The translations under genes were made by a program, and so were the position numbers. A stretch of 64,000 nucleotides of DNA from Salipiger bermudensis HTCC2601. Its GTDB lineage: Bacteria > Pseudomonadota > Alphaproteobacteria > Rhodobacterales > Rhodobacteraceae. The notes below the pieces were generated by a model. It worked only from the letters and a program-made list of their open reading frames with translations. It did no database searches and was not told where the DNA came from. This document shows, piece after piece, positions 1 through 13,024 of this stretch (position 1 is the first letter of the stretch; each line of letters starts with the position of its first letter). The stretch covers positions 3,952,629-4,016,628 of the forward strand of contig NZ_DS022276.1 in the NCBI RefSeq assembly GCF_000153725.1, written 5' to 3'.

Positions 1-174
1 GGCCTGGATTGCGGCGTCGCTATAGGTTTGCTGGCGACCGCGCCGCCCGGACGGCGCCGCTTTCCATTGCATCAAGGGATCGAACCAGACGGTCAGCGAT
101 CCGCGCCGCCTCAGCGCCTGATTGTAGCTGCGCCAGTTGGTGGTCTTGTAGGTCGGCTTCGGAGGTCTGCTCAT
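1..174 (-). CDS. IS5-family transposase, N-terminal part (cut by window edge)
   Basis: This is the first 58 codons of the same DDE transposase encoded in full at 6998-7930, starting MSRPPKPTYKTTNWRSYNQ. The start codon is 60 bp inside the terminal inverted repeat, exactly as in the complete copy. The visible part is the N-terminal DNA-binding region, and the catalytic residues would be outside the window. Whether this copy is intact cannot be seen. Confidence 0.9.
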   Translation of the reverse strand, partial: MSRPPKPTYKTTNWRSYNQALRRRGSLTVWFDPLMQWKAAPSGRRGRQQTYSDAAIQA

Positions 175-234
175 GCTGCCCGGCTAGCATGCTGGATTCA
201 CGAGATGAATCCCCTAGATTTGCGCAACAACGCC
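1..234 (-). mobile_element. Partial IS5-family (IS903-type) element, copy A
   Basis: These bases are the reverse complement of 6938-7171, the left end of the complete IS at 6938-7984, and I see no difference between them by eye. The terminal inverted repeat lies at the inner edge, ending at 234 (rc GGCGTTGTTGCGCAAATC). The rest of the element lies left of the window. Orientation is inverted relative to copy B. The apparent identity suggests recent transposition. The 9 bases just inside (GGTTCGCGG, 235-243) would be the target duplication to look for on its other side. Confidence 0.93.
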
Positions 235-850
235 GGTTCGCGGTCTCAGTTATTGAATATGCCGAAGCAAACAGTATCCCCTTGGCGCGACCGTTGGTCA
301 ACTTAGACTTCAGTGACTTTTAGGTCCACCGAAATTATAGCCGACTGGACGCGATCAACATTTTTCATGATAGTTTTGGCCCGACACTTCACACCGCTAG
401 GAATCTGCCATTTGCTGCGATGCAGAAAATCTGCAAGAAGGGCTCCAAGCGGCCATGCGGCAGCGCGGCAGGCTCCTCGCTCAGGTGAGCCTGCCGCAGG
501 GCGTGGACGGCCCAGAGCTGACCTTGGCCCACTGCCAAGACGCCCCACCGCAGTGTCACAGAAGCGGCCATTCCTCCTGGCCGCAGCATTTTGAACGATC
601 GAAGGTCGGGAGAGCGCAGGCAGCGGACGCACCCTGTCGAGCAAGGGCGCCTCACTTCACAGGCGCGCTCGGCCAAATGGGAAACGCGGGGAAGGACGGT
701 TTTGAGAAACTGTTTTATGTTCCTTCGGTGCGATTTAATGTTCGGAACAAAAACTCCGGACACCATAGGTATTGATTTTGCTGTCCTACGCTTGAACTGA
801 GTAGAACCAAACCAGAGAACGTTTGACGTACACCCTCAACTGACGTCATT
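235..850. other. Gene-poor stretch between IS copy A and the reverse transcriptase gene
   Basis: No frame here has convincing coding features; the short open frames overlap each other and match nothing I recognise. A 9-bp stem hairpin (GGCAGGCTC 467-475 with GAGCCTGCC 487-495) is present but lacks a T-run on the minus strand, so it is not an obvious terminator for the gene ending at 851. The central part (about 430-680) is more GC-rich than the flanks and may be a decayed remnant. Confidence 0.5.
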
Positions 851-3800
851 CTAGTAATCCGTCCACTTCTTTTGCGGCATAACTGAGTGGGCGGGAGGGG
901 ATTTGAAAGGCTTCGAAGTGCTCTTCGGAACAGTTTTTTGGTCGTCGCCACCGTCTTGGGAATCCTGAATATGCCGGCTCTTGAAATCCGCGATGCGATC
1001 AATCTCGAGAAATGCAATCGACGCTTGAGGTTGGCCATGCATGTGGAAAATTTGTCGCTTGTAAGGCTTCGTAAACGGAGCATATGCGTTGCTTCCTCCG
1101 TACAACCCATTGTTTGCAACAAGGACCATCTGAAACATATGGTAATGAAGCGCCTGCGCCATTTGATCGAATGTACCCACGTCCTTGTTCAGCGCAGGTA
1201 TCAAGTAGACGTCAGAATGATCTCTCAAATCAGCTGCCAGACTCAGATCGGTAGCGTCGTAGCAGATCGACGCGGTTAGCCACAGGGGATCATGCCCAGG
1301 TTCATTGGTCCATTGGTAGCCGACTAGCCACTGACATGGCCGGAATGGGCGTATCAAAGTAACTGGACTATTAAGCTTGCTCTCTTCAGGTGCCAGATTT
1401 CCTTTACCCTGCCGTCTGATTTGAACGCGAAATCCACCGGTGGCGTCTTGCATCGGAAGAATCCAAAGTGCGCTATTAACAAGAGGTTTGCCCTTCTCGA
1501 CTTCATCATATGTCAAACCTGTAACCACCGTAGTGCGATACTTACGCATGAAGGGGACAATATGAGTACCAACGTCTGCAGGGTGAACCGCTAGCTCCGG
1601 TAGGATAAGGAGATCCAATCGACCATTCTGGTCCTTGTGCGTTTCTCGCAATTCCAAAGACTTAATGACTGCCGATAGAGCTGCCGAGAGATGTCTTCGA
1701 TGGCGAACGCGTATGCTCTTATCAGACATTGTGAGATCAGATTTCTGAAAATCTTCTTTTTCTCCGGGGATCACTGTTTGCACAACACAAGCACGAATTG
1801 GCTGCGTGGAATTCCCGGAATATGAACGTGGAAGATTAATAGGCAGAACATCGACACTTTTACCGTGAAAGCCTTCAAGTAGGGCCGACCTTTCCCTAAG
1901 CGATCGAAGCAGGTGGTCAGATGAGTTACTAAGATCGAATCTTCCTTCTACTTCCGGGCAGCCGGGCCACTTTAGTAGTTCAAACAGCAAGTTCTCCGTC
2001 CAATCAGAAATAGGCAACCAATCGTCACCAAAGGCGGAGTGTCCGCTGTAGAGGCCGTAGAACCTTTGGTACCAATGACTCGTAGCGGGGCGGTAGATGG
2101 TATCGGATTCTTTCCAGTATGAAGTCTTGACAGGCTTAGTGAAATCCCGGCGCGCCGTTAAAATAAACCTTAGCAGGTAGCCTAGCTGAAAACGCCATTT
2201 CTCGTCGTCGTGGCACCAGTCCGGGGGTGAATACAAAGACCCAGAGCCTTTCCCGGAACTCTCTATTCGCACCGAATCCACCGTATGCCTTCTCGTATCG
2301 CTTTCAGACAACGAAACGTACACATCCGATGGTGAAATATAGTCGTGAACTTTGCATTCTGAAAGTTCCACGAGAAAAGCAGAGGCAAAACTGATCAAAG
2401 AGTATTCGTTTCGGAGTATCTCCCTAGTTTCCTTAGATAGGACCAGGTCGGCCAGCTGTAGTTCACGCTTCCGGCCTCTAGATTTCTTATAGCTCAAGCT
2501 GGATTTTGAAGCGCCATAGAACATTTCAAGCATCGAGGGATCAAATTCCGCCATCTCCGCACCGAAGTCGGGATCCAATCTGGCGATTTTATTCGCCCTT
2601 GCCGCAGTAATGTTTGTTGATACTATCGATCGTGTCTGTTCGATGCTCCGAAACGATCTTCTGGTCAGAACAGAGTATGTGGCGAATTCTTCATCTGTAA
2701 GGTTTTCAAAATTTCCCGAAAGAAAATTCTGAAGTTTGCCGTAATGTCTGCCGACGACAGCTGGCTCTGCGAGTACTATCGGGTCTCCACTTGTGGCCAA
2801 GAGAAGGTGCGCTTGCTGCACTAGGTACCAGGGTAGCGCAATTGAACTGCCTTGAAGCAAGGCGCTGGCTCGCCCGTACAGTTCGCTTCTGAATTTATTG
2901 ATATCAAGCCGCGATGGAAGCTTCTCATCATCATCGACAAAAGCTGTCTCAACAGCTCCTGCGCGGAAGACTTCCGCTAGGCAGTACGAAGAAACAAGCA
3001 CCTCCAGAGAGTTAGGCTCGTGATCATTGATCGCCCCCATTAGCAGGTCGAGAATTCGCCTCAGCAGATGGAATTCGGGCCAAACATCTAACCCAATTCG
3101 TAGCAACCGCACATTAGATGGATCTTGGATCCACTTTGAAACCATTTCATACGCAAAGGCTCTTGCTTCTTCATCCAGCTCTTGCCTCGTCAAGTCGGAG
3201 CCGAACCGCGAAGTTGCCAAATCCACATCGTCTTGGTTGCTCTCAAAGTAAAGCAACGGACGCAAAGAGCGGTATGTGCTTCGAAACCTCGCGGCGGCGA
3301 AGCGATCGACCGTTTCGTCCTTCACGTCAGGGACGGGCAAGAACTCTAGGCTGGAAGTCGCAGATTCCCTAGCACCGAGTCTTTTCTGAGCACCGATTAG
3401 TCCAAGTATTGATGATAGTATTTCGCTACCTCCTGTGGCATCAAAACCTCCAGAGACAGCGGACTGAATTCTGCGCATCTTTTGGCTCTGCCTAACGACA
3501 GGCCGTTCTTCGCCACGGAATACCGCGGCAACAGTTTTCTCCCTTGAGGTTGTAAGGCCGGGCGCTGCGTCGTTCAAGAGATCATTTAACCATCTGGAAA
3601 GCTCCCCCTCTACTTTATCGATGCCCGTTTCGTTTTCGACAATTAGAACTAGGCGTATGTCATCAACATACCTAGCGCAGTCCATCAATTTTACTCCAGG
3701 CATTATGTAGGTATTTATCGACCCCACCATTGCTTCATCGAAACTGAGAAGTACGGTATTTGCCAAAAATCCCGACGCCACAAGGCCCTGCGGAAGGCAC

Positions 3801-4606
3801 ACTCTATCAAAACTATCGAGAGAAGCCTGTCTTTTGTATTCACTTACTAGATCATTATCATCTTTATGCCAGCGCCAATCTAGATAACCACAAGCGAAAT
3901 CAAAGAACTCCATCTCAGATATGTTTTTCTGAAATTTTCTAAGCGAGCTATGGAGCAGCTCTGGAGCCACTCGATCATAGAACTGTCTGAGATCTGACTG
4001 CAGAATGACAACTTTCGAGTCGGATTGAGGAAGGGCTTCAGCTATGGCGTCAGGACGTTCTAGAAATGATCGATAATCCTGGAAGTAACCTCTATATAAC
4101 TTTGCAGATCCCCAGCGATGCCTTAGCTCGCTACCCTCTCTGTCACAAAATAGCCGATTCCCGTATGAAACCACTCGATCGACCGGTAAATCCGTGATGG
4201 GGTTTCTTGGATCACCCTGTGCAGTCTCCACGCGATCCGCCAGCAGTAGCATCAATGCCGTCGTTACCACCTGATCTTCGATCGAAACGTGGGCTAATGG
4301 CCGCAAGCGAGCGGATGCCCCTGATGCCTCCATCGGGGCCCATTTCCCATTTCCAAAGACGCCCCACTCTTGGCTCTTTGGAGCTGGCACCATCCTCAAG
4401 GGATCACTGGATGATGCGTTTCCCGATCGGATTTTCATTGAAAGGTTTGAGATGAAAGTCTGGAGATTTACTGCCGTCAAGTCTAATTCGAGTGTATCAG
4501 AGAACCAATTGTGATATCGGATATGTGCGGAAGCTTTCTTCCATGCTTGCACTAGGACTTCTTCACGCGCCAATTCGTCAAGACTCAATGCGAGTTTTTC
4601 GATCAA
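851..4606 (-). CDS. Reverse transcriptase-nitrilase fusion, class 1 UG/DRT1-like defence protein
   Basis: The 1251-residue protein has an N-terminal reverse transcriptase. Motif A is LQSDLRQFYD (Asp205), motif B is LPQG (271-274), the catalytic box is YVDD (313-316), and the following motif is TSREK (353-357). A long middle region (about 420-930) has no family I can name. The C-terminus (about 937-1205) is a carbon-nitrogen hydrolase (nitrilase) domain with the full triad Glu1004 (ILPEL), Lys1068 (QGKGN) and Cys1115 (SICYD). This order and length match the class 1 'unknown group' reverse transcriptases (UG1/UG5/UG6), of which UG1 is the DRT1 anti-phage system. The start is a TTG with AGGTG five bases upstream; no in-frame ATG is better placed. 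It has its own promoter and lies outside the HNH operon. An anti-phage role is inferred from the family; the exact UG group needs a phylogeny. Confidence 0.9.
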   Translation of the reverse strand: MIEKLALSLDELAREEVLVQAWKKASAHIRYHNWFSDTLELDLTAVNLQTFISNLSMKIRSGNASSSDPLRMVPAPKSQEWGVFGNGKWAPMEASGASARLRPLAHVSIEDQVVTTALMLLLADRVETAQGDPRNPITDLPVDRVVSYGNRLFCDREGSELRHRWGSAKLYRGYFQDYRSFLERPDAIAEALPQSDSKVVILQSDLRQFYDRVAPELLHSSLRKFQKNISEMEFFDFACGYLDWRWHKDDNDLVSEYKRQASLDSFDRVCLPQGLVASGFLANTVLLSFDEAMVGSINTYIMPGVKLMDCARYVDDIRLVLIVENETGIDKVEGELSRWLNDLLNDAAPGLTTSREKTVAAVFRGEERPVVRQSQKMRRIQSAVSGGFDATGGSEILSSILGLIGAQKRLGARESATSSLEFLPVPDVKDETVDRFAAARFRSTYRSLRPLLYFESNQDDVDLATSRFGSDLTRQELDEEARAFAYEMVSKWIQDPSNVRLLRIGLDVWPEFHLLRRILDLLMGAINDHEPNSLEVLVSSYCLAEVFRAGAVETAFVDDDEKLPSRLDINKFRSELYGRASALLQGSSIALPWYLVQQAHLLLATSGDPIVLAEPAVVGRHYGKLQNFLSGNFENLTDEEFATYSVLTRRSFRSIEQTRSIVSTNITAARANKIARLDPDFGAEMAEFDPSMLEMFYGASKSSLSYKKSRGRKRELQLADLVLSKETREILRNEYSLISFASAFLVELSECKVHDYISPSDVYVSLSESDTRRHTVDSVRIESSGKGSGSLYSPPDWCHDDEKWRFQLGYLLRFILTARRDFTKPVKTSYWKESDTIYRPATSHWYQRFYGLYSGHSAFGDDWLPISDWTENLLFELLKWPGCPEVEGRFDLSNSSDHLLRSLRERSALLEGFHGKSVDVLPINLPRSYSGNSTQPIRACVVQTVIPGEKEDFQKSDLTMSDKSIRVRHRRHLSAALSAVIKSLELRETHKDQNGRLDLLILPELAVHPADVGTHIVPFMRKYRTTVVTGLTYDEVEKGKPLVNSALWILPMQDATGGFRVQIRRQGKGNLAPEESKLNSPVTLIRPFRPCQWLVGYQWTNEPGHDPLWLTASICYDATDLSLAADLRDHSDVYLIPALNKDVGTFDQMAQALHYHMFQMVLVANNGLYGGSNAYAPFTKPYKRQIFHMHGQPQASIAFLEIDRIADFKSRHIQDSQDGGDDQKTVPKSTSKPFKSPPAHSVMPQKKWTDY

Positions 4607-4643
4607 TTTTACACCTGTTTTCGCATGGAAGTATTAGCAAAAT

Positions 4644-4672
4644 AGAATATCGTGTGCTTTACAGGTTGGCAA
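4644..4672 (-). promoter_or_regulatory. Sigma-70-type promoter of the reverse transcriptase gene
   Basis: On the minus strand, -35 TTGCCA (4672-4667) is followed by a 17-bp spacer and -10 TATTCT (4649-4644). A start about 7 bp downstream would give a leader of roughly 30 nt before the TTG at 4606. The region is AT-rich relative to the genome. Confidence 0.65.
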
Positions 4673-5120
4673 CGCGCCCGAATCTAGGAGCTGCCTAGTG
4701 TTGCCAGTTTATTGCGCCAAGCTGTCGATGTGGCGTTTCTGCTTGGCTGGCCGCTGCTGCGGCAATGCGCTTATGTTCAGTGATGCCTTCTAGTGCAGTA
4801 CATTCACATTCTCTAAAGCAGACATCGCGCTCGGCAGGTCGGATGGCAGCATTGTCCAAGTCACGTCATGAAGGGCGACCACTGGTCGTACCTTCGCTAT
4901 GTCGGCTACCTGTGCTTCGCTGCTGTTCATCCTGGACGCAGCGAACGGCGTCTCTCCGCCCGTCGCGCAACTCTGGGTCGCATTTTTAGATGGCACGCGC
5001 CAGGAAAAGATTAATGCTTGCTATCCTGAGAACGGCCACACAATCTGGAAATTGAGTGCCACCCACCTTCCCGCCGCTTCGTAGTGCGCGTTTTAATACA
5101 TAGAAAACAAACAGATACCG
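4673..5120. other. Non-coding stretch upstream of the reverse transcriptase promoter
   Basis: About 450 bp with no supported gene. The longest frames are 60-70 codons, lack a convincing ribosome site and do not resemble known proteins. Short inverted repeats occur (CCAAGC/GCTTGG; GCCGC/GCGGC; CGACC/GGTCG), which would be compatible with a structured RNA, but I see no retron-like msr/msd layout. Confidence 0.45.
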
Positions 5121-5149
5121 AAAACAAGGGCGAGGCTTAGGCCCCGCCC
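5121..5149 (-). terminator. Terminator of the helicase-HNH operon
   Basis: On the minus strand a 9-bp GC-rich stem (5149-5141 with 5136-5128, one mismatch) is followed by TTGTTTT. The HNH stop codon TAA (5139-5137) lies in the hairpin loop, so the terminator overlaps the gene end and separates this operon from the reverse transcriptase gene. Confidence 0.7.
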
Positions 5150-5616
5150 TTCATCTGGTTATCCCGCTTCCACAAGGGCTGCAGATTCGTGTAGTGACAA
5201 AGCTTCGCCAAGTCTTCGACGGTGCTCGCTGCCGACAACGGTATGACATGATCGATTTCCCATTGACCGTATCTCGGCCAGGCCATCCCCTCGCTAAATT
5301 GAGCAGTGATGTATTGCTTCAATCTTCTACGATCGCAACCCAGCGCTTCGACAGGACTTACCCTCCCACGCAACACCTGCCCCGACCTTCGCTGCACGGA
5401 TCGATACATTCTGAATGATGGATCAGCCGCGGACCTCCGCCGCTCCCGTTCCCGTGCCTTCTCTGCATTGCATTGAATGCACTGCCCGTTACTGACATAG
5501 CGCTCCGCAAAATGCCCAGACTTGCAGGGCTTTCCCGTATTGAAACGCGAAAGGCCGCACTGGGCGGCCTCTTCACGGGTAATAGATTTTGATTTTGTGC
5601 TCAGAGGATCACACAT
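5137..5616 (-). CDS. HNH endonuclease
   Basis: This 159-residue protein has a zinc-binding CxxxH...CxxC set (Cys31, His35, Cys46, Cys49), a basic linker rich in Arg, and a C-terminal HNH core (EIDHVIPLS with Asp122-His123, then TNLQPLWKRDNQMKG). This is the pattern of phage and mobile-element HNH nucleases, which cut DNA with one metal ion. Its start overlaps the end of the upstream helicase-like gene by 16 bp in another frame, suggesting translational coupling and a shared role. A terminator follows at once. Since the upstream gene is disrupted by an IS, expression of this gene from the native promoter may be lost. Confidence 0.85.
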   Translation of the reverse strand: MCDPLSTKSKSITREEAAQCGLSRFNTGKPCKSGHFAERYVSNGQCIQCNAEKARERERRRSAADPSFRMYRSVQRRSGQVLRGRVSPVEALGCDRRRLKQYITAQFSEGMAWPRYGQWEIDHVIPLSAASTVEDLAKLCHYTNLQPLWKRDNQMKGGA

Positions 5617-6928
5617 CTGAATCCCTTCACATCAGCCGTAACAGGTTCATAGCGGAGCACAGGTTTGGCCGTACGCCCGCAGCCAGGAACAAAGCGCCAC
5701 CCTCGTGTATGAAGCGGCTTGCACTGTTTCGACCCGAATACACGCTTCAAGTCTTTGCTCGCAATTTCGGTTTCGCTCTCAACATCCGACGCATTTAACG
5801 TTATCGGCCGCTTTCCAGCCATAGCTGAAGCCAACAGGCCAAAGAGTCTTTTACCCTTGGTATTCTGAGAACTTGAATGGTCGTCGATGTATGAAGGAGC
5901 AGCTGCTCCGGGAAATATTGAGTCGTAACTTTCCGTAAAAAGCCCTCGATCCATCGTGGTATAAAGACGCATTGAATTCGCAAATCCACGTTCATCGATC
6001 AGGCGTACGCTTCCACGGCTGGCCATCTGCTTAAAATGCCGCAATCTATGTGCTTTGGACACATCAGAAACCGCGCCTGTGCAATGACTTCCATTTGCTT
6101 GGGACAATTCGTCATGAGACACTGTAAGCCCTCGTGCTGCAAGGCTCCGAGCGAGGTAGATATGCCGAGGCTGGTGAAATTCTGCGAACAAGAAAATGAC
6201 GCTACAGCCTCGGTATTCGTTTGAACCTACACCCATACCCCAATTCGCCACTTTGACCTTTCGGCCCGGTATCGGATTCATCGCATCCAAATAGTCACGG
6301 ACCCTCTTTGGCACCACAATCAAAACACTTTCATCTATTGTTGACTCCGCTCTGACGGTGCGCTTTACCCAAGAAGCATACCCTCGTATGGTATCGGAAG
6401 ATGCCGACCGGCTGGACGCAAGTTTAAATTCAGGCGGCTGATTGATATGGAAAGGATCCAGATTCCGATATGAAACTGTCCCGCCGCTATATCGTTGAAA
6501 TGGCTTCCCCGCTTGAACCAAAGGTGAATATCCGGCCGTTGCATCTAGGATGACGAGACCAGGGTGACTTTGAAACCGATTATGAAAGGTCACTAAGTTT
6601 TTCTGGCCATTCGCTTCTCCCGAACGGCGTGCTTTGGCGCGTGAAAGAAACGCCCCTCCATTTGCGCTAGAAATGACACCATTCATTGTATTTTCCAAAT
6701 TATGCAGATTATCGACGTCGTTCAGACGAGTTAGATCGACAGCCTTCAGAAGGGATAAATCTCCCGGAGCGACTAAATCTGGAACTGAAAAGCTTGAGCG
6801 TTTCGCACCGCACTGCGCTCTAAATGCTCTAGCCGCCTCACGGATCACTTTCGATGCAGTCTGATAATTGGGAAAGCGCTCAAGCTGATCGGCGAGTTCG
6901 TCGACATCCGACGGTGAAATCTCTGATA

Positions 6929-6937
6929 TATGCAATG
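6929..6937. repeat. 9-bp target-site duplication, left copy
   Basis: TATGCAATG immediately left of the IS, identical to 7985-7993. Nine base pairs is the duplication length of the IS903 group of IS5. Confidence 0.95.
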
Positions 6938-7984
6938 GGCGTTGTTGCGCAAATCTAGGGGATTCATCTCGTGAATCCAGCATGCTAGCCGGGCAGCATG
7001 AGCAGACCTCCGAAGCCGACCTACAAGACCACCAACTGGCGCAGCTACAATCAGGCGCTGAGGCGGCGCGGATCGCTGACCGTCTGGTTCGATCCCTTGA
7101 TGCAATGGAAAGCGGCGCCGTCCGGGCGGCGCGGTCGCCAGCAAACCTATAGCGACGCCGCAATCCAGGCCTGTCTCACCCTCAAGGTCCTCCTCGGGCT
7201 GCCGCTCCGCCAGACGACGGGGTTCGTGGCGAGCCTGCTGGAACTGTCCGGGCTGGGGTGGTCCGTTCCTGACTTCAGCACGCTGTTACGTCGTCAGAAG
7301 ACCTTGGACGTCAGCATCCCGTATCGCGGCTCCAAGGGGGCGCTTCACCTGCTAGTAGACAGCACCGGCATCAAGGTGGAGGGCGAAGGCGAGTGGCACA
7401 CGCGCAAGCATGGCGGCTCGAAACGGCGTGTGTGGCGCAAGATCCACCTCGGGATCGACGAGCAAACATTGGAGATCCGGGCCATCGAGGTCACGTCCAG
7501 CAATGTCGGCGATGCGCCGATGCTGCCAGATCTGCTCGCCCAGATTCCGGCGGAGGAGGAGATCGCCACGGTGACGGCCGACGGCGCCTACGACACGCGC
7601 GCCTGCCACGATGCCATCGCCGCCCGTGACGCGGCAGCGGTCATTCCGCCGAGGCGGACCGCGAGGCCATGGGAGCCGGACACTGCCGGAGCCCGGGCGC
7701 GCAACGAAATCCTGCGGGCGTCAAAGCACCTGGGCAGGGCGCTCTGGCGGAATTGGAGCGGGTACCACCGCCGCAGCCGGGTCGAAACGAAAATGAACTG
7801 CGTGAAGCAGCTCGGCCAGCGGCTGATGTCACGGGACTTCGACCGCCAAGTGGCAGAGGTCCAGATCCGCGCGGCGGTCATGAACCGCTTCACGGCTCTC
7901 GGCATCCCGATGACCGTGGCCGCAGGATAGGTGTGTCTGGGGAAAGGGGGACTGCGGTCACCAGCTGATTTGTCCAACAACGCC
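6938..7984 (+). mobile_element. Complete IS5-family (IS903-type) insertion sequence, copy B
   Basis: The element is 1047 bp with imperfect terminal inverted repeats: GGCGTTGTTGCGCAAATC on the left, and GGCGTTGTTGGACAAATC when the right end is read inwards. Perfect 9-bp duplications flank it. It holds one transposase gene. GC content is higher than the island around it. It interrupts the helicase-like gene on the opposite strand. The left 234 bp recur inverted at the start of the window. Confidence 0.96.
6998..7930 (+). CDS. IS5-family DDE transposase
   Basis: This 310-residue transposase catalyses cut-and-paste movement of its element. The DDE residues are visible: Asp121 in LVDSTGIK, Asp195 in TADGAYDT, and Glu263 in RSRVETKMN with the following Lys. 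The length fits the IS903 group (about 300 residues). The start is 60 bp from the terminal repeat and the stop is 54 bp from the other end. The reading frame is intact, so the element is probably active. Confidence 0.95.
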   Translation: MSRPPKPTYKTTNWRSYNQALRRRGSLTVWFDPLMQWKAAPSGRRGRQQTYSDAAIQACLTLKVLLGLPLRQTTGFVASLLELSGLGWSVPDFSTLLRRQKTLDVSIPYRGSKGALHLLVDSTGIKVEGEGEWHTRKHGGSKRRVWRKIHLGIDEQTLEIRAIEVTSSNVGDAPMLPDLLAQIPAEEEIATVTADGAYDTRACHDAIAARDAAAVIPPRRTARPWEPDTAGARARNEILRASKHLGRALWRNWSGYHRRSRVETKMNCVKQLGQRLMSRDFDRQVAEVQIRAAVMNRFTALGIPMTVAAG

Positions 7985-7993
7985 TATGCAATG
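7985..7993. repeat. 9-bp target-site duplication, right copy
   Basis: TATGCAATG immediately right of the IS, identical to 6929-6937. Deleting the IS plus one copy restores the helicase-like reading frame. Confidence 0.95.
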
Positions 7994-8507
7994 TGTCCGG
8001 GAACTCATCTAGAAACACATGAGTACGCGGCGAACCATCATATTTTCGAATTCCATAATCACATTCTGTATCAGCTTCACTAAAGTAAAGTTCATGTGTG
8101 CAGATAACGACCCTACACTTCCTTAGAGCTGCCTTCTGGCTTGGACCGTTGGTGTTCACATGTTCCTCCACTCTGTCTCCAATCCTTTGCGCGGCCTCTA
8201 TGCTAGCATGAGCCGAAGTATAGATTGAAAGCTCGCCGTCCGGGAGCAAAGGCGAAATAAGATCATATACCTTTTGCGCTTCATTTATAGTGGCGACGAC
8301 ATAGGCCGCTGAGTAATTCTTCGCGTAGATGGTCCAAGTAGCGATAAGCGCAGTGCAGAAGGTTGTCTTTCCACTCCCAGTCTCAGAACAAACCAGCTTC
8401 GGGACAGAGTTTTTACGATCCGAATCTGCTTGTTTCACAGTGCTCAAGGCAGCATCGAAGAGTGCTCGATTGGACTTCATGCCAAAGGGGGTTGGCTTTC
8501 CGCAAAC

Positions 8508-8514
8508 TGCGCTC
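8508..8514. repeat. 7-bp direct repeat at the left end of the IS256 element
   Basis: TGCGCTC here and at 9879-9885 bracket the IS256 element. IS256 elements normally make 8-bp duplications, so this is either a slightly degraded duplication (7 of 8 matching) or chance. Confidence 0.45.
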
Positions 8515-8517
8515 GAT

Positions 8518-9874
8518 GATGTCCCGGGAAGTGGTGTAGCTCCTCATGGGCCTCGCGCTTTCGAGCGGGCCGAGCTGGTCAGTCGCTCTGCGCTGCAGGC
8601 AGACTGACACCGAGATCATCGCAGACGGGCGCGAGCGTTTCCAGCGTCATGTATCTGGCGCGCTGGACTGTCCATTCCTCGGTCTGCTCCATGAGGATCG
8701 CGCCGACGAGGCGCCGGATCGAAGCCTCGTTCGGAAAGATGCCGACGACGTCCGTGCGTCGCTTGATCTCGCCGTTCAGCCGCTCGATCGGATTGGTGCT
8801 GTGCAGCTTGGTGCGATGCTGGGCCGGGAAGGTCATATAGGCCAGGACGTCCTCCTCGGCCGTGTCCATGAGCGTGGCCAGCTTGGGGAGCTTGCCGCGC
8901 ATCTGGTCCGCCACGAGACGCCACTGGGCCTTCGCCGCCGCGTGGTCGGGCTGGGCAAAGGCCGTGGCGATGAATGCCGAGACCACCCGGCGGCTGTTCT
9001 TGCCGGCATGGGCGAGCGCATTGCGCTGGAAGTGGACGCGGCAGCGCTGCCAGGTCGTGGACAGGACCCGGGCGGTGGCGGCCTTGATGCCCTCATGCGC
9101 ATCGCTGATCACAAGCTTCACGCCGCTGAGGCCACGGCGGACGAGATCACGCAGGAACTCGGTCCAAAAGGGTTCGGCCTCGGAGGCCCCGATCGCCATG
9201 CCCAGCACTTCGCGCCTGCCGTCGGTGTTGACGCCCACCGCGAGCGTGACCGCAACCGATACGATCCGGCCGCCCTGGCGCACCTTGAGATAGGTGGCAT
9301 CGATCCAGAGGTAGGGCCATTCGCCCTCGATCGGCCGTGTCAGAAAGGCATCCACGCGCTCGTCGATCTCCTCGCACAGTCGGCTGACCTGGCTCTTCGA
9401 CACCCCGGTGCCACCCATGGCCTGCACCAGGTCGTCCATCGATCGCGTTGAGACGCCGTGGACATAGGCCTCCTGGATCACGGCCGTCAGGGCCTTCTCA
9501 ACAGAGCGCCGCGGCTCGAGGAACGAGGGGAAATAGGAGCCGGTGCGCAGGCGCGGGATGCGCAGTTCGACGCTGCCGGCCCGGGTCTGCCAGTCCCGAT
9601 CGCGATACCCGTTGCGCTGCGCCAGGCGCTCGCTGGTCTTCTCACCATAGTCAGCACCGGTCTTGGCGCCGACCTCCAACTCCATCAGCCGTTCGGCAGC
9701 AAAGCCGATCATCTCGCGAAGCAGGTCGGCATCGGCGCTCTTCTCTACCAGCGCACGCAGGTCCATCATGGGTTTGGTCATCGGGGGCATCCCTCGGTTC
9801 AGGTTGGTGTCAGCAACCCGACCCTACCGAGAAACCCGATGGCCACCGAAAGCTACACCACGACCTGGGACCTC
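8518..9874 (-). mobile_element. IS256-family insertion sequence
   Basis: A transposase gene is bounded by inverted repeats of about 24 bp: GATGTCCCGGGAAGTGGTGT at 8518 and, reading inwards from 9874, GAGGTCCCAGGTCGTGGTGT, both continuing AGCT. Outer limits are uncertain by a few bases because no perfect 8-bp duplication is seen; a 7-bp direct repeat lies just outside. It sits at the 5' end of the broken helicase-like gene. Confidence 0.85.
8579..9781 (-). CDS. IS256-family mutator-type transposase
   Basis: About 400 residues of a DDE transposase of the IS256/mutator family. The signature blocks are present: [10 protein letters not shown] (first Asp), [10 protein letters not shown] (second Asp) and the C-terminal [15 protein letters not shown] (Glu), plus CRVHFQRN in the family zinc-like motif. 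I chose the ATG at 9781 because GAGGG lies 9 bases upstream; an in-frame ATG at 9790 abuts that ribosome site. The gene is intact and much more GC-rich than its surroundings, in line with a newcomer to the island. Confidence 0.93.
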
Positions 9875-10249
9875 ACCATGCGCTCTGAGTTTGGCAGGCC
9901 GCATGGAATATCTGTTCATAGTTCAAGTTTCTCTCCACAAAAGAAAACCCGCCGTGAGGCGGGTCAGGTGATTTCAAATGTAAAACGGCGTATTTTTCTA
10001 TGGGTATCTTTTAGGAAATTGCGCCGATGACTTCAGGTGTGCCATTTCGTGGCGCTCCGTTCTTGTCTATATGTGAGCAGTTCGTCAGGAGGATGGAAGG
10101 AGTTTCCAGCATCCATTTGTTTTTAAATAGAAATTTAGAAGCACACTTCCCGTTCCGGAAGTACCTTTTGACGGACTGTGATCAGGCAAAACACAGAGTG
10201 AGCACCGATAACTGAACCCTAAGCCACAGATACTTACTTAGAAGGATGC
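9875..10249. other. Intergenic stretch between the IS256 element and the secreted-protein gene
   Basis: No supported gene, apart from a possible short leader frame starting on the minus strand at ATG 9919 (preceded by GGAGAG) that runs into the IS256 element. It holds one terminator (9943-9964) and the right copy of the 7-bp repeat (9879-9885). A 62-codon plus-strand frame near 10027 has no coding signs. Confidence 0.45.
9943..9964 (-). terminator. Rho-independent terminator
   Basis: On the minus strand, ACCCGCC-TCAC-GGCGGGT is followed by TTTCTTTT. It is the first terminator downstream of the integrase-secreted protein pair and would end that transcript. Confidence 0.75.
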
Positions 10250-10732
10250 TTACTCAACTCTATCCTCGCTGCTGTCCTTCTCGGTTTTCCGAAAGCACTT
10301 TCCACTGATCACTGCTGCTTCATACGTCTCCGTACCACGCGGCACAAAATATGGACCTGAAGAGTAGTAGCGCTGATGTGTAACCATCGACGCAACTCCG
10401 GTTTCAAGGTGGATAGTGAAGATCGACATATGGTCCAGAAGTGGAACCTTCGGTGTGTGAGAAAAGACCATAAATCCGTCTGGCTCTACTAAGAAGTATG
10501 GACCGACGGACATCGCCCACTCGCCGTTCGCAGTACGCATTTGGACTTCATAACTCCCGTCAACCCGAATAACACGCCACGAATGCCCGTTAGATTCCTT
10601 ACTGGAGAGACGATCCAATCCTGCGCCAGAATAAGCCTTGTGCATCTCGCAAGTTAATTCGATGTGCTGAGCGCGTGCCATTCTGGGCTGCAAAGAAGCC
10701 AAAACCGCCACAGCAAACAATAGACCTTTCAT
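10250..10732 (-). CDS. Small secreted protein of unknown function
   Basis: This 160-residue protein has a clear signal peptide ([14 protein letters not shown], probable cleavage after ARA near residue 21). The mature part has two Cys (one near the start, one in SGKCFRK) that could form a disulfide, and no transmembrane segment. I recognise no domain. Its ATG overlaps the integrase stop codon (ATGA), so it is translated together with the integrase, an odd partner for a periplasmic protein. It could be cargo of the island or a conserved satellite of this integrase type. Confidence 0.7.
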   Translation of the reverse strand: MKGLLFAVAVLASLQPRMARAQHIELTCEMHKAYSGAGLDRLSSKESNGHSWRVIRVDGSYEVQMRTANGEWAMSVGPYFLVEPDGFMVFSHTPKVPLLDHMSIFTIHLETGVASMVTHQRYYSSGPYFVPRGTETYEAAVISGKCFRKTEKDSSEDRVE

Positions 10733-11754
10733 GCCGCAGAGCCTGCCTTATTGAACTTCAAAACAATATTTTCTGCACGTAGGTGAGTATATCGGAACAG
10801 CATTCTCGGGTCTCGGTGCCCACTTATAAGTGCAACTTCGGGGACCGACAAACCCATCTCAAAGAAGCGGCTGACTGCTTCATGCCGAAGATCATGAAAA
10901 CGTAGGCTCTCAATTTGCTTATAGTCTTCGGCTACTTTGCCCTTACAGCGCTGCCAGCATTGCCTAAATGCGTTCGCTGAAACAGGGAATATTCTAACCG
11001 AACTGTCATCACAGACTTCCAACATATCTCGCAACACATCAACTGCAACGGCGGTCAGTGGGATACGCCTAGCATGGCCGTTCTTTGTCTCTCGGATCGT
11101 CAAAGTGGATGTATCCATTGAAACATCACACCACCTTATCGAAAGTATTTCCCCTCGGCGCATCCCCGTTTCGATTGCGAGCACGATCCCGGCACGAAGC
11201 CAGTCGTTTCTATAGGACTGACAGGCTGTCAGCAGAAGATCAAGCTCGCCGGGGCGTAGGCGCCGCTCCCTCGGATCAGGCGCTTTTGGTTTGCGCACGT
11301 TCGCAAGCGGATTATTCTGCAGCGGCACATCCCACTCTAGCCGCGCAACCTCAAAGATCGATCTGAGCAATCCCAAGTCGCGAATAACGGTACCCGGCCT
11401 TACAGTGCGGAGGCGTTCGTCTCTGTAGCGACTGAAGACCTGTGGCGTCACCTTCGAGAGAGTTCGGTCAACCCATGTCTGCCGAAGAAAACCATCGATC
11501 CGCTTGCTCTCAGATGCAGCGCCACGTTTGGTAGCTGTTACTTCTCTTCGGTAGCGCTCCAAGAGGTCGCGTACGGTGACCCGGTCCAGAACACGTATGT
11601 CAATCCTTAGTGCCGAGGCCTGAAGTTCTGCTTCTGTCTGCTTGGCCCAGCGTTCGGCATCGCGCTTGGTCGTAAAGGACTTGGTTTGCGATGCATGCCC
11701 CTTGATACGGACCTGCGCATGCCACTTACCATTGCGATTTCTGATGGCAGCCAT
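10729..11754 (-). CDS. Tyrosine recombinase/integrase of the island
   Basis: This 341-residue site-specific recombinase has an N-terminal Arm-binding domain, a SAM-like core-binding domain (about 55-155) and the catalytic domain. The catalytic set is complete: Arg199 (TGMRRGE), Lys224 (TKNG), His287-x-x-Arg290 (FHDLRHEA), His313 (SGHRD) and the nucleophile Tyr322 (RYTHL). It starts 107 bp from the 3' end of tRNA-Arg(CCG), the expected attachment site, and points away from it. The 3' neighbour is coupled by ATGA. It should integrate and excise the island, with an excisionase not recognised here. Confidence 0.95.
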
Positions 11755-11860
11755 GTCTTAGCTCCTCTTGGTGTGCCCAGAGTGTGCCAAGTTGCTTTTC
11801 AGTGGTTTTTCGCCGCGTTCCTCTCTAAGCGCAAACCGCTTGCAAATAGAGGAATAAGTA

Positions 11861-11937
<77 letters not shown>

Positions 11938-11947
11938 CTGCGCCGGG

Positions 11948-11976
11948 GTGATAGTGCAAAGCAAAGCGGCCCGCAA
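11948..11976 (-). promoter_or_regulatory. Probable promoter of tRNA-Arg
   Basis: On the minus strand, TTGCGG (11976-11971) is followed by a 17-bp spacer and TATCAC (11953-11948), placing the start a few bases before the tRNA 5' end at 11937. Confidence 0.5.
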
Positions 11977-12010
11977 TCGGGAATTCCCGTTCCGCGCCGC
12001 TTTCCTGCAC

Positions 12011-13024
12011 TCACTCCGGTCGGCGCGCTTCGGCCAGCATCGTCATCTGCGGGATCATCTCGGAGACCGTCACCTCGGCAAAGCCCGCCGCCCACAGATC
12101 CCTCGCCAGCCCTTCGGCATCGACCGAGCGCGCCTCGGGCGTGAAGGCGGTGTGCTGGAGCTGCCAGAGCGCCGCCAGCGGCGGGCCGCTGCGGTCGGCA
12201 TGGACCACGAAATCGTGGATCAACAGCCGTCCGCCCGGCATCAGCCGATCATGGGCGGCGCGGAGCAGCCCCTCATGCGCCGATCCAGGCACGCCGGAGA
12301 ACAGGTAGGACATCAGCACCACGTCCTGCCCGCCCGGCCAGTCGGTTTCGAGCGCGTTCCCCTCGACATACGCGATCCGGTCCGACAAACCTGCCTCGGC
12401 GACATGGCGGCGGCCGAGCGCCGCGACATTGGGGAAATCGACGATGGTGGCCGAGAGCTCCGGGAAGGCCTTGCACAGCGTGATCGCGAAGGCGCCAGTT
12501 CCGCCGCCCACGTCGAGCAGCTGGCGCGCCCCCGACAGGTCGATGCGCTTGGCGAGCTGGCGCGCCGGGCCGAGCGAGCCCGCATGCTGGCTCTCGGAAT
12601 AGAGCCGCGCCTGCTCTGGGTCGGAGAACCATTGCTCGTAGGAGGCCGTGGCCCCCTCACCCAGCGCCCCCGAGACTGCGTCACCGAGCTGGCCCATGAG
12701 CCCGTACATCTGCTTGCCGACCTGAAGCCGCAGGTAATCGCCGAAATCGTATTTCGCGCCCTTCACCAGAAAGGCCTCGGCGGCCGGTGAATTCGCAAAG
12801 CGCCCGTCCGAGACCGTCACCAGCCCCAGCCCTGCCAGCGCGGTCAGCAGCGTCTCGGCGCGATCGCGATGCAGGCCGGTGCGGTCTGCCAGCGCCTCTG
12901 CATCAAGCGCGCCCTCGGCGAGCACGGTAAAGAGGCCATGATCCAGCGCAGTGAACAGCGCCTGTGACCCCATGAACCCGAAGGCAATTCGCGAAATCTC
13001 GTCGGCGTCCGTGACCGGCCCCAT
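12011..13024 (-). CDS. SAM-dependent O-methyltransferase (methyltransf_2 type)
   Basis: This 337-residue protein has an N-terminal winged-helix dimerisation domain (about 10-100) and a C-terminal Rossmann methyltransferase domain with motif [13 protein letters not shown], post-I Asp in IVDFPNVA, and the LLIHDFV strand. This is the layout of plant-type O-methyltransferases and of bacterial CrtF- and acetylserotonin-like enzymes. The substrate is unknown. It lies downstream of sufS on the same strand, separated by a hairpin, and is the last core gene before the tRNA and the island. Confidence 0.85.

Follow-up and report, generated by a model that had tools for sequence, protein, structure and literature searches.

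A full-length DRT1 reverse transcriptase-nitrilase on a tRNA-targeted island of Salipiger bermudensis, with a middle part that looks like a protein-kinase C-lobe

The window analysed here, a 64,000-nucleotide stretch of the Salipiger bermudensis HTCC2601 genome, carries at positions 851-4606 of its minus strand a gene, drt1, that is a full-length and intact member of DRT1 (also UG1 or Drt1a), a known kind of anti-phage system, and that lies on a mobile island. Its product of 1251 amino acids (aa) combines a reverse transcriptase (RT), an alpha-helical repeat, a part that resembles the C-lobe of protein kinases, and a nitrilase. The gene forms a single open frame of 1251 codons with no internal stop. 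It starts with TTG, and in the bases preceding the start, ..AAAACAGGTGTAAAATTG, we read an AGGTG as the putative ribosome-binding site. The PADLOC profile for Drt1a (PDLC03745) scores 1255.6 bits and aligns residues 4-1227 with profile positions 5-1173 of 1176. The DRT1 structure 9YFD in the Protein Data Bank (PDB) matches end to end, with an E-value (E) of 5.8e-116 for the single sequence and of 5.1e-266 for a 15-row profile (profile 2-1236 against chain 6-1225), and the next PDB sequence follows at E 3e-5. The assignment to UG1/DRT1 made in an earlier, sequence-only reading of this DNA is borne out by these scores. Its label "class 1" has to be replaced, because RT-nitrilase proteins belong to class 3 (PMC13275509).

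The two enzymatic domains are recognised unequally by standard annotation. Within the RT domain (residues 1-370; 3497-4606, minus strand), the Pfam model RVT_1 matches residues 178-361 with 28.9 bits, just under its cut-off of 29.6. The nitrilase domain (residues 936-1210; 977-1801, minus strand) would be missed by Pfam annotation, because no Pfam nitrilase model matches the protein at E <= 0.1. A structure model of residues 1-1200, with a predicted local distance difference test score (pLDDT) of 78.3 and a predicted template modelling score (pTM) of 0.82, recovers RT folds (group II, diversity-generating retroelement (DGR), DRT2 and retron) with Z up to 21.8 as well as nitrilase folds, namely beta-ureidopropionase and formamidase at Z 15-16. 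A retron or group II intron RT was rejected on the NCBIfam scores, which are 29.8 bits for retron_St85 (cut-off 235) and 26.1 for group_II_RT_mat (cut-off 300); no DGR model is among the NCBIfam matches of the protein, and no separate DGR test was made. In a 32-row tree of RT domains, the window protein stands in a 12-row set that consists of DRT1 throughout (support 96/99) and does not cluster with retron, DGR or group II RTs. On this short domain, DRT1 as a whole is separated from the remaining RTs with weak support (57/57), UG19 being placed among the DRT1 rows on a long branch; the family claim therefore rests on the full-length scores.

Conserved sites were counted in an alignment of 21 rows, comprising the window protein, 19 full-length homologs and 9YFD; an earlier version of 20 rows was the same minus L043, which had been dropped by a length filter. 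The counts exclude broken or partial copies (L007, L047-L050), two Sphingopyxis records in which a single piece matched 64% of the query, and four plasmid records with matches to 6-17% of it; in 9YFD, residues 938-945 and the first 14 were entered as X. Asp205, LPQG 271-274, YVDD 313-316, Glu1004, Lys1068 and Cys1115 are all found where the sequence-only reading had placed them. Invariant in 21/21 rows are D205, P272-Q273-G274, D315, D316, S385, E1004, K1068, E1075 and C1115. Both active sites are thus intact, as had been claimed, with D205, D315 and D316 as the catalytic residues of the RT. The three residues of the proposed nitrilase triad also stand, but the set is better described as a tetrad that includes the equally invariant E1075. 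Ser385 (codon 3452-3454, minus strand), within RIQSAVSGGFD, aligns with S402 of 9YFD and is the predicted DNA-priming serine; no other Ser, Thr or Tyr within residues 371-430 is invariant throughout the 20 rows compared. At the C-terminus, residues 1235-1239 (890-904, minus strand) form the lid K-S-P-P-A, which corresponds to K1219..A1223 of 9YFD and is kept as K..PA in 20 of the 21 rows; the exception, L034, has a different and shorter C-terminus. In the 9YFD protein, the mutants K1219A and A1223F were as bad as tail deletions (PMC13275509). Altered copies occur in other genomes: besides the Drt1a of L034, these include a Drt1a piece with in-frame stops (L048, genome G838).

The best explanation of the gene, and in our estimate a highly probable one, is a single-gene DRT1 abortive-infection system whose working can be transferred from the study of 9YFD, which was solved by cryo-EM together with biochemistry and mutants in June 2026 (PMC13275509). 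By this analogy, the RT domain would add short A-rich DNA to its own Ser385 without a template or RNA. The DNA adduct would drive tetramerisation via the nitrilase domains and the stacking of tetramers into a dormant filament, in which the C-terminal tail (K1235-A1239) of one subunit would close over the nitrilase pocket of its neighbour. The phage replication machinery would release this lock, and the nitrilase (E1004, K1068, E1075, C1115) would then destroy or make a small molecule so that the cell stops before phage release. The middle of the protein would consist of the alpha-helical repeat and a dead, kinase-C-lobe-like scaffold joining the repeat to the nitrilase. For the branch studied here, priming at Ser385, the filament, the trigger and the killing are what we infer from the 9YFD protein, and they come with precise candidate residues in a DRT1 branch outside the published structure: Ser385 for priming, K1235 and A1239 for the lid, and C1115 for killing.

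The middle region had been left without an assigned role in the sequence-only reading, which allowed for a new domain in it. The first point no longer applies, since the middle of the 9YFD protein is now described as an alpha-helical repeat domain at the filament periphery (PMC13275509). In the window protein, residues 430-700 (2507-3319, minus strand) are helical in both models, and residues 7-622 of the larger model align with AbiA (Z 17.8, 402 residues, 5.3 Å). As for a new domain, residues ~700-913 (1868-2509, minus strand) look like a catalytically dead protein-kinase C-lobe, judged from model and sequence comparisons. This would be new with respect to the DRT1 structure paper, in whose main text the word kinase is absent (PMC13275509), and nothing relevant that links pseudokinase or kinase-like parts to defence reverse transcriptases was found among the open papers searched. 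When a model of residues 436-938 (pLDDT 75.4, pTM 0.70) was compared by VIA-align, 50 of 50 listed rows were protein kinase or pseudokinase entries (Z 11.3-13.2, 139-160 residues, 3.0-5.3 Å; in a few complexes the chain was taken to be the kinase). These rows mostly lie within model residues 263-478, equivalent to 698-913 of the window protein, and the top kinase match reached Z 13.2 over 144 residues at 3.2 Å. The comparison rests on predicted models, and the VIA library ends on 8 April 2026, with 9YFD not among the fold rows.

As a Z of about 13 does not settle the matter for helical models, the sequence was tested separately. Aligned by hhalign, a profile of 20 DRT1 rows (window residues 700-935) and one of 23 bacterial kinase domains gave P 1.5e-4 (probability 51) over 142 columns, which pair window residues 716-877 with kinase positions 87-246. 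The kinase profile was drawn from 24 of 30 loci (without L084, L094, L102, L105, L106 and L108), less L103, where no open frame was found. None of 200 column-shuffled DRT1 profiles reached this P (best 0.053), nor did any of 99 runs with shuffled kinase columns (best 0.075); the reversed DRT1 profile gave P 0.19, and nine other DRT1 stretches gave 0.041 at best. The same region cut from another alignment yielded P 2.8e-4 and 4e-4, and all of 16 random half-sets gave P <= 0.0036 in about the same register. The similarity is co-linear from the hinge and alphaD to alphaH of the kinase C-lobe. Typical kinase motifs are LKPxNIL, YxAPE and HRDLKPxN. In our reading of the aligned letters, ISPSDVYV may stand for LKPxNIL and YSPPDW for YxAPE, while WRFQLGYLLRFILTARRDF (in L045, outside the clade of the window protein, FYALGRLLRSAITGEEDF) may stand for DIYACGVVLYELLTGRKPY of L083. 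As aligned, the HRD aspartate and the LKP lysine are present in 0/20 rows. An N-lobe with a glycine-rich loop is likewise lacking, for the part before the lobe is modelled as helical; the kinase alignment begins at column 87 of 261. In BFVD, kinases occupy ranks 1-3, although with E 0.48-0.75, and in our judgement they do not make up the bulk of that library.

Other results speak against the lobe. Mostly helical models without a clear match have, according to VIA's own note, a typical best Z of 14. Foldseek found no match of the middle model in the PDB at E <= 0.001; its best entry there was a symplekin HEAT repeat (E 0.21), and kinases appear only from rank 9 (E 0.75). A profile of the region, searched with hmmsearch against PDB sequences to E 10, retrieved only 9YFD, and the HMMER Pkinase model matched one of 20 rows at E 0.1. 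Either clade taken alone gives a weaker hhalign match (P 0.029 for that of the window protein, 0.0016 for the other), and an APH profile is not matched (P 0.24) though kinase against APH gives 2.3e-10. On balance, we lean towards the view that the DRT1 family contains a degenerate kinase C-lobe (~700-913) which no longer has an N-lobe or catalytic residues, serves as a scaffold in the manner of KIND, has its leading edge at the contact of stacked tetramers, and may set dormancy or sense the trigger. In the window protein, the tetramer-contact residues 696-715 of 9YFD correspond to 695-717, where the kinase-like part has its edge; the unresolved 9YFD loop 837-846 corresponds to 825-837, in the interior of this part. 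The KIND domain (Spir, PTPN13), known from eukaryotes, is a non-catalytic kinase C-lobe used as a binding module; the likeness is drawn by description and is meant as analogy, not membership. If the kinase-like lobe is real, phage-defence polymerases would be connected with the kinase fold, and a region that the DRT1 paper calls an alpha-helical repeat only would offer a concrete candidate for trigger sensing. As a separate observation, the PADLOC model of a stand-alone RT-associated nitrilase (PDLC03804, 397 positions) aligns with residues 727-1229 (851-2428). It thereby spans most of the kinase-like part plus the nitrilase, as if both form a unit that is found apart from the RT.

Several features weigh against a simple transfer of the DRT1 mechanism. 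The window protein shares only 27.5% identity with 9YFD (313/1138 aligned residues), so that the transfer is made by conserved sites and not by closeness. Over the priming loop and the first helical half, identity is just 17%, the alignment with 9YFD in this loop requires a two-residue gap, and position 374 is a Ser or Thr in 20/20 rows. The pseudoknot pair R1210/Y1215 is found in 3/21 rows (9YFD, L053 and L054), the window protein having S1210 and S1231 instead, and 25 residues separate position 1210 from the lid lysine, compared with 9 in 9YFD. The TTG start and a broken neighbouring gene on the island (see below) also count on this side. The dormant lock may differ here, because R1210/Y1215 is not kept and the linker to the lid lysine is longer; as the pair is not family-wide, DRT1 membership stands without it. 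A corresponding alternative is that this DRT1 relative retains the chemistry while lacking the filament lock. The tail would then be an ordinary nitrilase lid, and dormancy would come from elsewhere, perhaps from the kinase-like lobe, at whose edge the tetramer contacts of 9YFD map. The contrast between the widespread lid and the rare pseudoknot pair would be in line with this idea, as would the longer linker. However, non-conserved tail residues of the 9YFD protein have an effect of at most 10-fold, so that a filament may form anyway (PMC13275509), and the only full-length relative in the PDB copy searched is 9YFD, which lies outside the clade of the window protein. A loss of the lock is conceivable, but we consider it rather unlikely.

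A decaying, silent gene that is a mere passenger on an island broken up by insertion sequence (IS) elements appears less probable still. It would agree with the IS5-family element that splits the neighbouring helicase-like gene, with a second IS end 616 bp past the drt1 stop codon, and with the absence of drt1 from 4/4 congeners searched, but hardly with 1251 codons free of stops and with catalytic sites that are all intact. In addition, two clade mates in the same family, L004 and L005, which are a different pair and do not include the window gene, are under purifying selection as judged from their sequences (dN/dS 0.086). A DRT5-like identity, with the gene encoding an RT-nitrilase of the UG5 or UG6 type instead of DRT1, seems very improbable and was rejected. 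A UG5 RT-nitrilase acting with a membrane protein defends E. coli, according to the excerpted text of PMC9122126, and the UG5-nitrilase model does match the window protein, best over residues 993-1228; but it scores 141 bits and UG6 only 19, compared with 1255.6 for Drt1a over residues 4-1227 (further PADLOC scores are 412 for a second Drt1a model, 229 for the RT-associated nitrilase and 48 for UG21). Moreover, the window protein has the priming serine of DRT1, which is not a conserved residue of the other class 3 DRTs (PMC13275509).

Compared with known systems, the window protein is like the DRT1 of 9YFD in having a single ~1,230-aa chain with RT, helical region and nitrilase in this order, and it shares the catalytic residues, the priming serine and the K..PA lid. 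It differs by the low identity, the lack of R1210/Y1215, the longer linker, 12 residues that follow the lid, and its separate clade. The UG5 RT-nitrilase (DRT5) also unites RT and nitrilase in one system, but its profile score is nine times lower, and UG5 is described as a different RT clade in the excerpted text of PMC9122126. AbiA, AbiK and AbiP2 resemble the window protein in having an RT followed by a helical region, as reflected by the AbiA alignment mentioned above. To our knowledge, these polymerases have no nitrilase part. According to PMC13275509, priming by protein and synthesis without a template are features of class 1 UG/Abi RTs.

The DRT1 of 9YFD works without a partner gene (PMC13275509), and no drt1b was found beside the window gene. 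In three plasmid copies of DRT1 outside the clade (Vibrio, Pseudoalteromonas and Photobacterium; L052-L054), Drt1b of 140-168 aa with one predicted transmembrane stretch is encoded directly downstream; a full-length Drt1a is common to these systems and the window. Among 10 neighbouring open reading frames (ORFs), two of the window and eight of L004, L034, L035, L036, L039 and L042, PADLOC detected no Drt1b. Among the neighbours of 19 DRT1 loci, BLAST revealed no families in common except those of L039/L040, those of L004/L005 and the Drt1b of L052-L054, the flanks of L004, L005 and L041-L046 covering only ~1.5 kb. When 86 frames of the island were compared with the neighbours of DRT1 loci, the one match was that of the integrase to an integrase-like ORF of L034. 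A hidden partner gene was rejected on these three comparisons, and an RNA component was rejected as well, Rfam at gathering scores giving only the tRNA in positions 1-12500. What is new at the level of the family is a division between DRT1 features that look universal, namely the chemistry, the priming serine and the lid, and those that look local, namely the pseudoknot pair and drt1b. Near clade DRT1 genes, the ORF of L034 just mentioned (7999-9255) is similar to the window integrase (30% over 293 aa), and L039 encodes a type I methyltransferase (9660-11708); both would fit mobile or defence-rich surroundings.

Besides alphaproteobacteria, the 12-row set contains metagenome bins from four other phyla, with the labels Geobacteraceae, Holophagaceae, Bacteroidetes and Chloroflexi, while 9YFD falls outside it with the gammaproteobacterial plasmid copies. 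Identity to the window protein is 44-50% within this clade and 27-36% to the other DRT1 rows. The gene is rare: among 394 genomes of the family, 3 (its own included) have full-length matches and 37 others partial matches only. At E <= 1e-50, its own genome included, matches were obtained in 2/390 genomes of the order, 3/385 of the class and, counting fragments too, 8/398 of the phylum. Carriage by a virus was rejected: no tblastn match at E 1e-5 appeared among 50,697 phage records, and none in IMG/VR with six peptide patterns, an approach that reaches close relatives only. In the 10 same-family genomes scanned (L008, L009, L010, L012, L014, L015, L018, L021, L025 and L028), weak Drt1a matches turned out to be other RTs: five Drt2, two Drt3a, and one each of Drt9, UG19 and a group II intron RT.

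The drt1 gene is carried on an island that is targeted to a tRNA-Arg (CCG) gene (11861-11937, minus strand) and missing in a congener, G1136, which confirms the tRNA-targeted island of the sequence-only reading. A tyrosine integrase (10729-11754, minus strand; Phage_integrase E 4.2e-27) adjoins the 3' end of the tRNA, and 52 nucleotides over this end are repeated with 2 mismatches at about -1319, left of the window. A single contig of G1136 carries both flanks: the tRNA side aligns from the tRNA outwards (89%), and the left flank also aligns (83%). Between them lie ~4.1 kb of other sequence, against which tblastn with the integrase and DRT1 gave nothing better than E 0.77. About 1 kb immediately left of the repeat has no counterpart in G1136. 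The drt1 gene has a G+C content of 49.0% and the island within the window, IS elements excluded, one of 50.3%; elsewhere in the window it is 66.7%. A run of 100 N interrupts the left IS copy just beyond the window, so that the connection between the left island end and the window depends on the assembly. The stretch found in G1136 instead (L082, 3303-7440) appears from its translations to encode an RTX-like repeat protein and a transporter-like ORF.

Upstream of drt1 lies an HNH-like ORF (5137-5616, 159 aa; E 0.0057, under the cut-off), for which PADLOC gave no match and which overlaps the end of the helicase-like gene. The latter (5601-6937 and 7985-8480) is split by an IS5-family element (6938-7984, plus strand; NF033579, 381 bits) that is flanked by the 9-bp target duplication TATGCAATG; without the IS, the frame has 628 codons, the sequence SETGSGKT and a sub-cut-off DEAD match (E 0.0026). 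As an IS256 transposase (8579-9790) is located upstream, the helicase-like gene may also be truncated at its 5' end. The end of a second, inverted copy of the IS5-family element occupies positions 1-234 (minus strand), its 234 nucleotides being 100% complementary to 6938-7171. The two inverted copies thus flank drt1 and neighbouring genes. This arrangement hinted at a composite transposon, but none is claimed: inserted in a gene, the right copy is bordered by a 9-bp target duplication of its own, and the left copy, which contains a run of N, shows no such duplication. The genome contains five full copies of the element, four with a matching 9-bp duplication and one with none. The sequence-only reading had placed the island in a roseobacter, which is plausible. 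The IS elements of the genome match 143 plasmid records, of which the best are from Phaeobacter, Cereibacter and Sulfitobacter and 85 are from Sinorhizobium.

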